Assembly: GCA_903901045.1 (NCBI GenBank)
Contig: CAIUPP010000011.1
Location: 1-64,000, forward strand
From: an uncultured Planctomycetota bacterium
GTDB taxonomy: Bacteria > Planctomycetota > Brocadiia > CAIUPP01
Direction of reading: 5' to 3'
Length of the DNA: 64,000 nt
Within the stretch, counting starts at the first letter, position 1, and each line of letters opens with the position of its first letter. Under the pieces are notes generated by a model. That model ran no database searches, was not told the DNA's origin, and was given only the letters and a program-made list of their open reading frames with translations. Positions 22,478 to 30,324 of the stretch are shown piece after piece. The position numbers were made by a program, and so were the translations under genes.

Positions 22478-23722
22478 ATGAAGATCATCGCGCGGGTCCT
22501 GCCTTTGTCGCTCCTTTGCCTGTTGCTCGTCTGCACCGGCTCCAGCCAGCCGCAACAATGGGCCAATTCGGGCGGAGGCAATCAGACGTGCTGGCGGACG
22601 TTCTACGAGCCGCTGCTGCCGTACGGGGAATGGGTCTGGCAGGATAACCAGGGCTGGAGCTGGAGCCCTTACAACATGCCGGTGGGGTGGCGGCCTTACT
22701 CGGAGGGGCGATGGGCGTACACCGACGCCGGCTGGTGCTGGGATGACGACCGGCCCTGGGGCTGGGCCACGTACCACTACGGGCGCTGGTCCTTCGACAG
22801 CGGACTCGGCTGGACATGGTGCCCGGGGTGCGACTGGGCGCCGGCCTGGGTGACGTGGCGCACCGGGGATGACTACGTCGGCTGGTGCGCGCTGCCGCCG
22901 GCCTGCCAGTGGACGGCCGGGTTCGGTTTTGCGCGCAGGGACTACGACTGGGACGATCTCTGCCCCGCCTCCAACTGGTGCTTTGTGCCGAGGGATTGCT
23001 TCCTGCACCACGACCTGGATCGCGACCTGTGCGATGAGGCGCGCAACGTGACCTGCTTCGGCCATACGCGCGCCGATTTCGACTACCGCCTGCACGACGG
23101 GCATATCGAGAACCGCCTCCCCGGCGGCCATGAGTGGGTGGAGAAGGATCTCGGGCACCGGCTCGAAGCGCGCAAGCTGGTTCCCGTGGGCGACCTGGGG
23201 GAGTGGCGCGGTGTCGCGAACGCCAACAGCAACGAACTGCGCGTGTTCAGGCCGGAGCATAACGGCACGCGCGGGCTGCGTTTCAACGACTTCCCGGTCG
23301 GGGCAACGCCGGACTCCGTGGCCAACCGGCATGAGCAGGAGAACCAGATGCTGAACCAGCGCCACCAGGAGTTGCAGTCACAGTTGCTGGAGCGCCATCG
23401 GACCGAGATGTCGCACACGCTGAACGAGCAGGCCGCGACGCGGCTGAGCCAGGAGCATACCGCCGAGAACCGCGCATTGGTCCAGCAGCAGCAGCGCGAA
23501 CATCAGCAGATGGAGTACTGGCACGGCATGGAGCGGTTCCGCTCCGCCGCGCCGAGCGCGCAGCCACAGCAGCATTTCAACTTCGCGCCGCGCAGCGGTG
23601 GCGGTGGAGGCGGGATGGCAGCGCCGAGTCATGGCGGCGGGGGCGGGACGGCAGCGCCGAGTCGCGGCGGCGGCGGGGGCGGCGGTGGCAGCCACGGCGG
23701 CGGAGGAGGCGGGCGGCGCTAG
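22478..23722 (+). CDS. Exported DUF6600-type Trp-rich protein with Gly/His tail
   Basis: 414 residues. A Sec signal peptide (MKIIARVLPLSLLCLLLVC) precedes a Trp/Gly/Tyr-rich region (30-150) with YEPLLPYGEWVWQDNQGW and RPWGWATYHYGRWSFDS, the repeated 'GxWxxxxxxGWxW' pattern of DUF6600 proteins. A Gln/Glu-rich coiled coil (about 275-350) follows, and the last 50 residues are almost pure Gly with Ser/His (SHGGGGG). The family is exported and of unknown function. The N-terminal Cys may be lipidated, but the -1 Val makes the lipobox poor. Eight or more Cys residues in the Trp domain suggest disulfides outside the cytoplasm. Confidence 0.78.
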   Translation: MKIIARVLPLSLLCLLLVCTGSSQPQQWANSGGGNQTCWRTFYEPLLPYGEWVWQDNQGWSWSPYNMPVGWRPYSEGRWAYTDAGWCWDDDRPWGWATYHYGRWSFDSGLGWTWCPGCDWAPAWVTWRTGDDYVGWCALPPACQWTAGFGFARRDYDWDDLCPASNWCFVPRDCFLHHDLDRDLCDEARNVTCFGHTRADFDYRLHDGHIENRLPGGHEWVEKDLGHRLEARKLVPVGDLGEWRGVANANSNELRVFRPEHNGTRGLRFNDFPVGATPDSVANRHEQENQMLNQRHQELQSQLLERHRTEMSHTLNEQAATRLSQEHTAENRALVQQQQREHQQMEYWHGMERFRSAAPSAQPQQHFNFAPRSGGGGGGMAAPSHGGGGGTAAPSRGGGGGGGGSHGGGGGGRR

Positions 23723-26977: not shown

Positions 26978-27478
26978 TTACTGCGCGGCGGCGTGCTGCG
27001 CCACGGGGCGCGGGGTTTGCAGTTCGGCCAGAGCGGCATCCACCAGCTTGGGCAGCGCATCGGCGACTGGGGTGGACAGTTCCAGGTCCAGCCGCACCGT
27101 CTGGGGCTGAACGCCGAAGATGACCGTCTCATCCGGTTCGCAACCGAGCAACTGCGCCATGTGGAGCGACTCCATCAGGCCCACGTCGTGGAGCGACAGT
27201 CCGCCCCCTTCGCGCGCCAGGAGGTCCTCCGGGAGCAGGCGGAAAAGGTCGCCGGGGTTTCCTCCGGCGTCCACCGCGTCCAGAACAATCAGCAGCCGCC
27301 GGCCGGCGATGTAGTCCACCAGGTCGGCTCCGCCGGTGCCGCCGTCGATCAGTTCCACCCCGTCGGGCAGGTGGAGCCGGGCCAGCGCCTCCACGGCGCG
27401 GACGCCGACTCCATCGTCCCCTCGCAGGATGTTTCCGATCCCCAGCACCAACTGTGGCAGTCGTGTGGAATCGTTCAC
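26978..27478 (-). CDS. Hydrogenase maturation protease (HyaD/HybD-like)
   Basis: 166 residues. It cleaves the C-terminal tail of the [NiFe] large subunit after Ni insertion. LVLGIGNILRGDDGVGVRAV is the family N-terminus with the Ni-sensing Glu/Asp region, ELIDGGTGGADLVDYI holds the second Asp, and LSLHDVGLME the His ligand. The GTG start overlaps the large-subunit stop by four bases, showing translational coupling; the frame upstream of it lies inside the large subunit and was discounted. Last gene of the operon. Confidence 0.93.
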   Translation of the reverse strand: MNDSTRLPQLVLGIGNILRGDDGVGVRAVEALARLHLPDGVELIDGGTGGADLVDYIAGRRLLIVLDAVDAGGNPGDLFRLLPEDLLAREGGGLSLHDVGLMESLHMAQLLGCEPDETVIFGVQPQTVRLDLELSTPVADALPKLVDAALAELQTPRPVAQHAAAQ

Positions 27479-28983
27479 AGTGTCACCGCCTCCAAACGCG
27501 CGCGACGACCGTCGGCGCGGGCCACATGCACGGAACAAGCCAGACACGGGTCGAACGAGTGCACAATACGGAGCAACTCGACCGGGTTGTTCGGGTCGGC
27601 CACGGTCACGCCGGTCAGCGCCTGCTCGAGGGCGCCGGCCTGCCCGGAGTCGTCGCGCGGAGAGGCGTTCCAACTCGTGGGGGAGATGACCTGATAGCGT
27701 TCGATCACGGAATTGGAGATCTGCACCCAGTGTCCCACGGCGCCGCGCGGCGCTTCGGACAGGCCGATGCCGGTCCCGGTGACCGGGGTGCCCTTGCCGG
27801 TGTACGAGGGCTGGCCGGGGACGAGTTCGTTGAGCCATTCGTCCATGGCGTCGCCGATCTTCTGCGCTTCCAATGCGCGCGCCAGGATGCGGTCCATCAC
27901 CGAGATGCCGTTGCGGTAGTCGCCGTTGATCCACATGCGGGCCAGCGGACCCACTTCGTGCACCTTCCCCTGGTAGCGCGGCGCTTTGATCCAGGAGTAG
28001 GCCCCCGCCTTGTCGGCGTTCGGGTTCGTCTCGCCGGCGGTGGGATTGCGGTTGCCGTTGGAGTTGTTGTACCAGGAGTACTTGACGTACTCGCGGATGG
28101 CCGCCGGGTCCACGGTGGAGAGTTGGCCGTCGGTCAGCCGGCCGCGTCCGAGCAGCTTGCTGTTGCCGTCGGCGGTCAGATTGAAGACGCCGTACGCCAG
28201 GAGGTTGCCGCTGCCGCGTCCGATGGAGAAATAGTCATGGAACGCGCCGCCGAGGGCGTACGCGTCGGGGACGTTGACATCGCGGACGAAATTGCGCACC
28301 TCGGTCAGCAGGGCGCGGAACTGGACGATCTTGTCGGCCGTGGCCGCTTCGGTCACGCCGCCGGGGAGGAAGACGGGGCTGCACGGCATCTTGCCGCCGA
28401 AAATCGCGCCCATCTGATGCGCCTTGCGCCGGATCGCCAGCGCGTCGACGTAGTGGCCCACCAGCGTCGCCGCCGTCGCGCCCTTGACCATGTCGGCCGA
28501 CATCGGCCGGGGCGCCCAGGGGGACATGTCCAGCAGTCCGGTGGTGTCGATATAGTCCGGCGCCGCCAGGTGGTAGAAATGCAGGACGTGCGACATGAGG
28601 AAATCCGCGCCGAGGATCAGGTTGCGCAGGATGCGGCCGTTGGGCGGGGCATCCACGCCGAAAGCCTGCTCCAGCGCCAGGGCGCTGGTCATGCCGTGCG
28701 AGACGGGGCAGACGCCGCAGATGCGCTGCGTGTAGTGCGTCGCGTCGCGCGGGTCGCGTCCTTTCAGAATTTGCTCGAAGCCGCGGAACATCGTTCCGGA
28801 GCTCTTGGCTTGCACCACGGTCTGCGCGCCGCCGGAGGGCGCCAGCGAGACCTCGAGTTCCAAGTGCCCCTCGATGCGAGGGACCGGGCCGACGCGCAGG
28901 ACGGTGGCAGCTTTCCGAGTCCCGCCCGTCGTGGTCTCCTTATCCTTCTCTTGTGTCCGAGTTTCCACAGTGCTTGATTCCAT
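27475..28983 (-). CDS. [NiFe] hydrogenase large subunit
   Basis: 502 residues, catalytic subunit carrying the Ni-Fe(CN)2CO site. The N-terminal Cys pair is in TQRICGVCPVSH with the preceding SGTMFRGFEQILKGRDPRDA block. The C-terminal pair is in DPCLACSVH, which is followed by a 16-residue tail (VARADGRRARLEAVTL) that the protease would remove after the His. This pattern fits group 1 (uptake, exported with a Tat-bearing small subunit). It starts at an ATG with GGGAGGG upstream, 6 bases after the small-subunit gene. No Hyp maturation genes, cytochrome b or FeS electron-transfer partner occur nearby, so physiological partners must be elsewhere. Confidence 0.96.
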   Translation of the reverse strand: MESSTVETRTQEKDKETTTGGTRKAATVLRVGPVPRIEGHLELEVSLAPSGGAQTVVQAKSSGTMFRGFEQILKGRDPRDATHYTQRICGVCPVSHGMTSALALEQAFGVDAPPNGRILRNLILGADFLMSHVLHFYHLAAPDYIDTTGLLDMSPWAPRPMSADMVKGATAATLVGHYVDALAIRRKAHQMGAIFGGKMPCSPVFLPGGVTEAATADKIVQFRALLTEVRNFVRDVNVPDAYALGGAFHDYFSIGRGSGNLLAYGVFNLTADGNSKLLGRGRLTDGQLSTVDPAAIREYVKYSWYNNSNGNRNPTAGETNPNADKAGAYSWIKAPRYQGKVHEVGPLARMWINGDYRNGISVMDRILARALEAQKIGDAMDEWLNELVPGQPSYTGKGTPVTGTGIGLSEAPRGAVGHWVQISNSVIERYQVISPTSWNASPRDDSGQAGALEQALTGVTVADPNNPVELLRIVHSFDPCLACSVHVARADGRRARLEAVTL

Positions 28984-28989
28984 GATTAT

Positions 28990-29160
28990 TTACCCTCCCG
29001 CCGTTGTAGTAGTAGCGCCGGTCGTGCCATTGGTGGCGCCGCCGGTCGTCCCGCCCGTCGTGGTCGTGGCGCCGGTGGTGCCATTGGTGCCGCCGCCGGT
29101 GGTCGTGCCGCCGTTGGTGGTGGTCGCGCCGGTGGTGCCGCTGGTGGTCGTGGCGCCGGA
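28990..29160. repeat. GCC/GGT-rich minisatellite in the small-subunit 3' end
   Basis: Imperfect tandem units of the type GCGCCGGTGGTGCCATTGGT encode the Thr/Gly tail on the minus strand. Such a tract can change in length by slippage or recombination. Confidence 0.75.
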
Positions 29161-30075
29161 GACGCCATCCGCGCCGAGCTTATAGAACGGCGACCTGCCG
29201 TCGGGGAAGTCCGGCTGCGTGCAGCCCTGGCAGGGGGTGCGCGCGCCGATGCACCAGTTCACGCCCGCTGCGCCGGCCGCCGGGCTGTTCCACATGCGGT
29301 TCGGGCAGTCCGAGTAGGTCTCGGGACCGTTGCAGCCGTACGAGTACATGCAGCCGCTGGATCCCAGACCGGCCGCGCCGACTCCCTTGTCGTAATCGGG
29401 GCGGAACGGGCACTGGTCGTGAATGCGTTTCCCGTAGTAATCCGTGGGCCGGCCGACGGCGTCGCGCGCGGGCGCTTTGCCGTACTTGATGTAGTAGGCG
29501 ATGGTGCCGATGATCCAGTCGGGGCTGGCCGGGCAACCCGGGATGCTGATGACCGTTTTTCCGCTGAGGATGCTGCGCACCCCCTTGGCGTTGGTCGGGT
29601 TCGGCTTGCCAGCGGACATGCCGCCGTAGCAGGCGCAGGTGCCCACCGCCAGGACGGCGGCGGCGTTCTTCGCGTAGAGGCGCACGGCGTCGTGCATCGT
29701 CATCCCCGGCCAGAGGGTGCAGTACTTGCCGCTGGCGCCGGTGGGAATGGCTCCCTCCACCACGAGCACATAGCCGGGCCTGGCCCGGTTCGTTTCCGCG
29801 GCGGCAACGGCTGCCGCGCCGGCGGCGGCCATCACGGTCGTGTCGTACTTCAGGTCAATGGTGTTCAGCAGCAGCGTATCCACGGTCATGTAGTTAATCG
29901 TGTTGAGCAGGGAGACGGAGCAGCCGGTGCAGCCCTGGCCTTGCAGCCAAATCACGCGAGGCGCGCCCGTTGCCGCCAGCGCCGAGCGCGTCCCGAGCAC
30001 GCCCATTCCGCTCACTCCGAACGCGGCGCCCACTGCGGCGGCGCCTTTCATGAAGTCTCGACGTGTCAATTCCAC
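28990..30075 (-). CDS. [NiFe] hydrogenase small subunit with Thr/Gly-rich tail
   Basis: 361 residues. A Tat signal (TRRDFMKGAAAVGAAFGVSG) exports the folded heterodimer. GQGCTGCSVSLL, GTCACYGG and GCPASPDW provide the proximal 4Fe-4S Cys. IHDQCPFRP, the GCMYSYGC pair and the distal WCIGARTPCQGCTQP region supply the other clusters. After FPDGRSPFYKLGAD, where most group 1 small subunits continue to a membrane anchor, this protein has about 65 residues of Thr, Gly, Ala and Asn only (repeats such as TTGATTTTGG). No transmembrane helix is present, so the enzyme is likely soluble in the periplasm or attached in another way. Confidence 0.95.
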   Translation of the reverse strand: MELTRRDFMKGAAAVGAAFGVSGMGVLGTRSALAATGAPRVIWLQGQGCTGCSVSLLNTINYMTVDTLLLNTIDLKYDTTVMAAAGAAAVAAAETNRARPGYVLVVEGAIPTGASGKYCTLWPGMTMHDAVRLYAKNAAAVLAVGTCACYGGMSAGKPNPTNAKGVRSILSGKTVISIPGCPASPDWIIGTIAYYIKYGKAPARDAVGRPTDYYGKRIHDQCPFRPDYDKGVGAAGLGSSGCMYSYGCNGPETYSDCPNRMWNSPAAGAAGVNWCIGARTPCQGCTQPDFPDGRSPFYKLGADGVSGATTTSGTTGATTTNGGTTTGGGTNGTTGATTTTGGTTGGATNGTTGATTTTAGG

Positions 30076-30090
30076 AGCACACCCTCCGAC

Positions 30091-30324
30091 TCAGGCTTTA
30101 CCAGACGGAATATTCCCCGCGACCACTTTGCTCCCGGACGATTGCGCAACGGGACGAACTACTCTGACCGGATGCCGCGCCAACTCCCGCGCGGCCTCCT
30201 CGGGGGAAACCTTCGGCTCGAGCCCCAATGAGCCGAATATCCCCAAACCCATTAACCCTCCCAAGAACTTGGCGGTCTCACCTATCCCCACTTGGCTGAT
30301 GAACGCTCTTCTCGACAGGTCCAT
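30091..30324 (-). CDS. Small Tat-signal protein of the hydrogenase operon
   Basis: 77 residues. MDLSRRAFISQVGIGETAKF contains the twin-Arg SRRAFIS motif, followed by a hydrophobic core (LGGLMGLGIFGSLG). The remaining 40 residues (VSPEEAARELARHPVRVVRP and on) have no Cys, so no Fe-S or heme ligand set is visible. It is the first gene of the operon, 15 bases before the small subunit. The ATG at 30324 is preferred over a GTG three codons upstream because GAGGTG is well spaced. It might be a membrane-tethered accessory subunit or a Tat escort for the hydrogenase; I know no named family for it. Confidence 0.7.
   Translation of the reverse strand: MDLSRRAFISQVGIGETAKFLGGLMGLGIFGSLGLEPKVSPEEAARELARHPVRVVRPVAQSSGSKVVAGNIPSGKA

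Follow-up and report, generated by a model that had tools for sequence, protein, structure and literature searches.

A hydrogenase operon with an extended small subunit

The window analysed here, that is, the whole 64,000-nucleotide stretch of DNA from an uncultured Planctomycetota bacterium, carries on its reverse strand the genes for a hydrogenase small subunit, a large subunit and a maturation protease, in that order. The features of the region are as follows.

30091..30324, reverse strand: short ORF immediately upstream of the small-subunit gene, 77 aa when counted from its ATG; its N-terminus is twin-arginine-like (ORF list)
28990..30075, reverse strand: [NiFe]-hydrogenase small subunit gene, 361 aa, with a Tat signal peptide and a GTG start (ORF and domain searches)
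28993..29178, reverse strand: Thr/Gly/Ala/Asn C-terminal tail of the small subunit, residues 300-361, predicted to be disordered and absent from relatives (composition, relatives, AlphaFold)
29001..29165, reverse strand: imperfect in-frame tandem repeat within the tail, period 54/57 nt, about 2.8 copies (Tandem Repeats Finder)
28993..28998, reverse strand: GGA GGG, the two Gly codons that close the tail and the likely large-subunit Shine-Dalgarno (read directly from the sequence)
28919..28936, reverse strand: 18 nt identical to a part of the tail repeat, within the large-subunit N-terminal extension (sequence match)
27475..28983, reverse strand: [NiFe]-hydrogenase large subunit gene, 502 aa, with the motif DPCLACSVH (Cys, not Sec; ORF and domain searches)
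26978..27475, reverse strand: HyaD/HybD-type hydrogenase maturation protease, start approximate (domain searches)

The small-subunit gene starts with the GTG at 30075, which GGAGGG precedes by six bases. Its product matches TAT_signal, Oxidored_q6 and NiFe_hyd_SSU_C in Pfam, all above cut-off, and reaches 260 bits against TIGR00391, for which the cut-off is 179.5. Given that both domains are present and the invariant Cys/His columns of the alignment are retained, the protein is a [NiFe]-hydrogenase small subunit. The open reading frame, strand, coordinates and identity proposed in an earlier, sequence-only reading of this DNA were thus borne out by the ORF list and the domain matches. Elsewhere in the genome HypD was detected, and neighbouring ORFs were read as HypB, HypE and HypF; judging from this gene content, an active enzyme is plausible.

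The surroundings of the operon were also searched for possible partners. No cytochrome, including cytochrome b, was found by Pfam matching among the neighbours scanned, and no ORF with at least two CXXCH motifs was found in the three pieces of contig 11 or the first 16 kb of contig C61. The 77-aa upstream ORF starts MDLSRRAFISQ and contains a hydrophobic stretch; it resembles the small Tat-target ORFs found beside formate dehydrogenases. As a conserved partner it was rejected: no homologue was found in 392 genomes of the phylum, the sole match being part of an unrelated sensor-kinase-like ORF, and no similar ORF precedes the small subunits of relatives, save an unconvincing RR-containing one at locus L003. 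No 16S gene was found in the assembly.

The best matches of both subunits are NiFeSe small and large subunits. The large subunit scores 592.5 against NF033181, just short of the cut-off of 600, and also falls under the cut-offs of NF045518 and NF045520. The reading frame is open through its DPCLACSVH motif, which has a standard Cys codon in place of the UGA for selenocysteine. In the small subunit, the Cys of an NWC motif lies at the medial cluster, where prototypical enzymes have Pro. NiFeSe-type closest relatives, four medial-cluster Cys and the lack of an anchor, all seen here, place the enzyme in group 1a by its features; HydDB describes group 1a as "Periplasmic ... [NiFeSe] variants" (PMC5037454). 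The enzyme therefore appears, from these features, to be an exported, soluble-type, group 1a-like hydrogenase in a Cys version of the NiFeSe-like form.

Composition, repeat structure and predicted disorder of the tail

The conserved core of the small subunit ends in ...SPFYK at residue 299 (window position 29179), and the remaining residues, 300-361, read LGADGVSGATTTSGTTGATTTNGGTTTGGGTNGTTGATTTTGGTTGGATNGTTGATTTTAGG. These 62 residues comprise 27 T, 20 G, 7 A, 3 N, 2 S and 3 others, so that 59 of the 62 are T, G, A, N or S and Thr accounts for 44%. The Thr/Gly/Ala/Asn character described in the sequence-only reading thus held, while its length of some 65 residues was slightly too high.

That reading had also proposed that a tandem repeat encodes the tail, and Tandem Repeats Finder confirmed this with the top-scoring array of the whole window (scores 174-180). 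Its 54-nt copies lie at 29001-29054, 29055-29108 (83%) and 29112-29165 (63%). The observed match at a lag of 54 was reached by none of 2000 shuffles of the tail's own codons but by 303 of 2000 synonymous shuffles. The repeat is therefore real at the protein level, with no extra DNA-level signal of recent duplication to support recent slippage. The final codons (GCT ACT ACT ACA ...) differ from the GC-rich codon usage of the repeat.

An assembly or frame error within the repeat, concealing a true C-terminus as short as those of relatives, would be another explanation of the tail. In its favor, the genome is a draft of 154 contigs and the tail region is repetitive with 75% GC. Nevertheless, the repeat does not break the reading frame, which closes with a well-placed stop and a Shine-Dalgarno for the next gene, and the repeat copies have diverged enough to be resolvable by short reads. 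We regard this explanation as very unlikely.

A hidden membrane anchor was likewise sought. The sequence-only reading had named a frameshift restoring a transmembrane anchor as an observation that would count against it; none of the three frames of the tail contains a hydrophobic segment, and a concealing frameshift was accordingly rejected. The best 19-residue Kyte-Doolittle mean after the last Cys motif is 0.11. Hydropathy, reading frames and AlphaFold agree that the C-terminal transmembrane helix of tail-anchored group 1 hydrogenases is lacking.

The AlphaFold model, built with 23 alignment rows, has an overall mean pLDDT of 65, which is modest confidence. The core is mostly confident (residues 91-260, block means 79-93), and the tail falls to about 28-36 over residues 301-361, with no helix or strand. 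The tail is thus hydrophilic and predicted to be disordered; given the modest overall confidence, nothing beyond disorder is claimed for its path. The earlier suggestion of a flexible tail fits this prediction, but a role as a substitute for an anchor helix is not supported, as the clade of this protein has no anchors. Nor did the idea of a spacer tethering the enzyme stand, since there is nothing at the far end to hold: the protein stops after ...TTAGG without a hydrophobic stretch.

Thr-rich sequence is a wider habit of this genome. A search for seven consecutive Thr codons gave 60 overlapping matches, spread over about ten places, and 7 in the reversed control. Most of the examples inspected are TTTT/S...LPP linkers within long ORFs that often look secreted, and one other ORF has a Thr-rich tract at its end. 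The Thr/Ser-LPP low-complexity linkers occur in large ORFs on contigs C60, C16, C30 and C23 (loci L044, L047, L048, L055 and L071). Within the window, a forward-strand ORF at 22478-23722 is also of low complexity, with a Gly-rich C-terminal tail, GGGGGSHGGGGGGRR, derived from a 33-nt repeat. A pattern search of the genome found the T/G repeat of the hydrogenase tail nowhere else, other matches being poly-Thr or random and at control level. The tail seems to belong only loosely to this habit, with a T/G make-up of its own.

The over-representation of Thr-rich stretches in long, secreted-looking proteins, together with the high Thr share of the tail, would suit a functional linker, O-glycosylated or wall-interacting, that holds the hydrogenase at the cell surface like the other Thr-rich linkers of the genome. 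However, those linkers mostly run between domains, whereas the tail is a terminal T/G/A/N sequence with nothing after it, its T/G composition is confined to this place, and neither a sorting motif nor a second domain was seen. We therefore consider a surface linker unlikely. That the disordered, Thr-rich and perhaps glycosylated tail docks a soluble hydrogenase to the wall, the matrix or an extracellular electron acceptor is a long shot; if true, it would add to helix and lipid anchors another way of positioning a hydrogenase.

Relatives, the gene junction and the gain of the tail

Matches to the small subunit were found in 32 of 392 genomes of the phylum sample, a count that includes the window's own genome and some weak or distant matches, and ten further loci were taken from named genomes. 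The family sample consists of two genomes, the second of which is without a small-subunit gene. From 37 loci, L020, L024 and two that end at a contig end were left out of the C-terminus comparison. The C-terminus could be read in about 33 relatives, none of which has a similar tail, and the possibility that it is common across the family was rejected.

In a tree of small-subunit cores, the window protein falls in a clade of eight with support of 96/99. Its seven clade relatives (L003, L013, L014, L015, L029, L016 and L018) are 43-55% identical to it, and all seven end 3-12 residues past PFY, PFF or PFI, with no anchor, tail or hydrophobic stretch. Anchored small subunits sit in other branches of the tree. 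The sequence-only reading had listed conserved short tails in relatives as evidence that would speak against it, and short, untailed ends are what its seven closest relatives have. Its remark that the tail occupies the site of the anchor helix in membrane-bound group 1 small subunits is correct by position but fails by descent.

This pattern bears on whether the tail replaces a lost membrane anchor and tethers the enzyme to a membrane partner. The position of the tail, that of the C-terminal helix in anchored small subunits, is in favor of such a replacement. However, the whole clade is without anchors, which left none to replace at this tip. In addition, a hydrophobic segment is missing from the tail, and no gene for cytochrome b turned up alongside. 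Largely refuted by the tree, replacement is extremely improbable. Since the seven relatives are short without an anchor and anchors occur elsewhere in the tree, the sequences are best read as showing that the tail was gained at the tip, by this lineage alone. With the nearest relatives at 50-55% identity, there could be a younger sub-clade that also has a tail.

The gene junction offers a clue to the origin of the tail. The large-subunit ATG lies 6 nt past the small-subunit stop, and the GGAGGG placed as the large-subunit Shine-Dalgarno could account for the GG at the end of the tail. The 18 nt shared with the repeat lie 129 nt from it, in the start of the large-subunit gene. The large subunit has 35 residues before its RIEGH motif, compared with 11-22 in the clade relatives, and its N-terminal extension is about 24 residues longer than those of the nearest relatives. 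Because both additions flank one junction and neither occurs in relatives, local expansion of the junction on both sides is suggested as the simplest reading. It is put forward as a suggestion because the DNA repeat is without excess over synonymous shuffles. Chance similarity of GC-rich Thr/Gly codons is a possible source of the shared 18 nt.

Taken together, we favor, as the probable explanation, a soluble-type group 1a or NiFeSe-like hydrogenase that gained a disordered tail in this lineage only, with no catalytic or anchoring part for the tail. The Tat-exported enzyme would oxidize H2 outside the cytoplasmic membrane, as its relatives do, and electrons would pass through the FeS chain of the small subunit to an acceptor that is either diffusible or encoded by a separate gene. 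GC-rich, low-complexity DNA where the two subunit genes meet is the probable source of the tail, and its growth would also have lengthened the start of the large subunit. Taking no part in catalysis or anchoring, the tail would at most form a soluble, flexible brush, perhaps O-glycosylated, on the exported enzyme. The data fit near-neutral drift just as well, and the most likely account of the tail is either drift or a brush that serves solubility or carries glycans. That a clean in-frame tail of 62 residues has persisted may reflect selection.

The finding matters mostly as annotation: as anchors are absent from the surrounding clade, a low-complexity tail found in the anchor position is not in itself a sign that an anchor was replaced. 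The tail is a real, lineage-specific and probably disordered addition to an ordinary soluble-type hydrogenase, a curiosity and not an anchor substitute. If functional, it would be a new way of placing a hydrogenase outside the cell. A literature search on such tails found nothing.

Comparison with known hydrogenases

The untailed relatives, among them L003 from a Phycisphaerae MAG (Planctomycetota), share the small-before-large subunit order and, like the window protein, lack an anchor; the tail occurs only in the window protein. An insert, WN....G..G.NWC, is common to L003, L013, L014, L015, L029 and the window protein, whereas L016 and L018 do not have it. The clade-marking six-residue insert (for example, WNSGAAGEPGYNWC) adjoins the medial-cluster Cys in this NiFeSe-related, Cys-containing hydrogenase clade.

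The best solved relatives of both subunits are the Desulfovibrio periplasmic [NiFeSe]/group 1a hydrogenases (PDB 2wpn and 3ze6). The Desulfovibrio small subunit has in common with the window protein a Tat signal, four medial-site Cys, a core ending in ...SPFY and no C-terminal anchor. Unlike the Desulfovibrio NiFeSe enzyme, that of the window has Cys for selenocysteine in DPCLACSVH, and its small subunit carries the clade-specific insert WNSPAAGAAGVNWC near the medial cluster together with the 62-residue tail. HyaA and HybO of E. coli are tail-anchored group 1 small subunits that share the fold family and Tat export with the window protein; both have a C-terminal transmembrane helix (PMC10924467), which the window protein is without.
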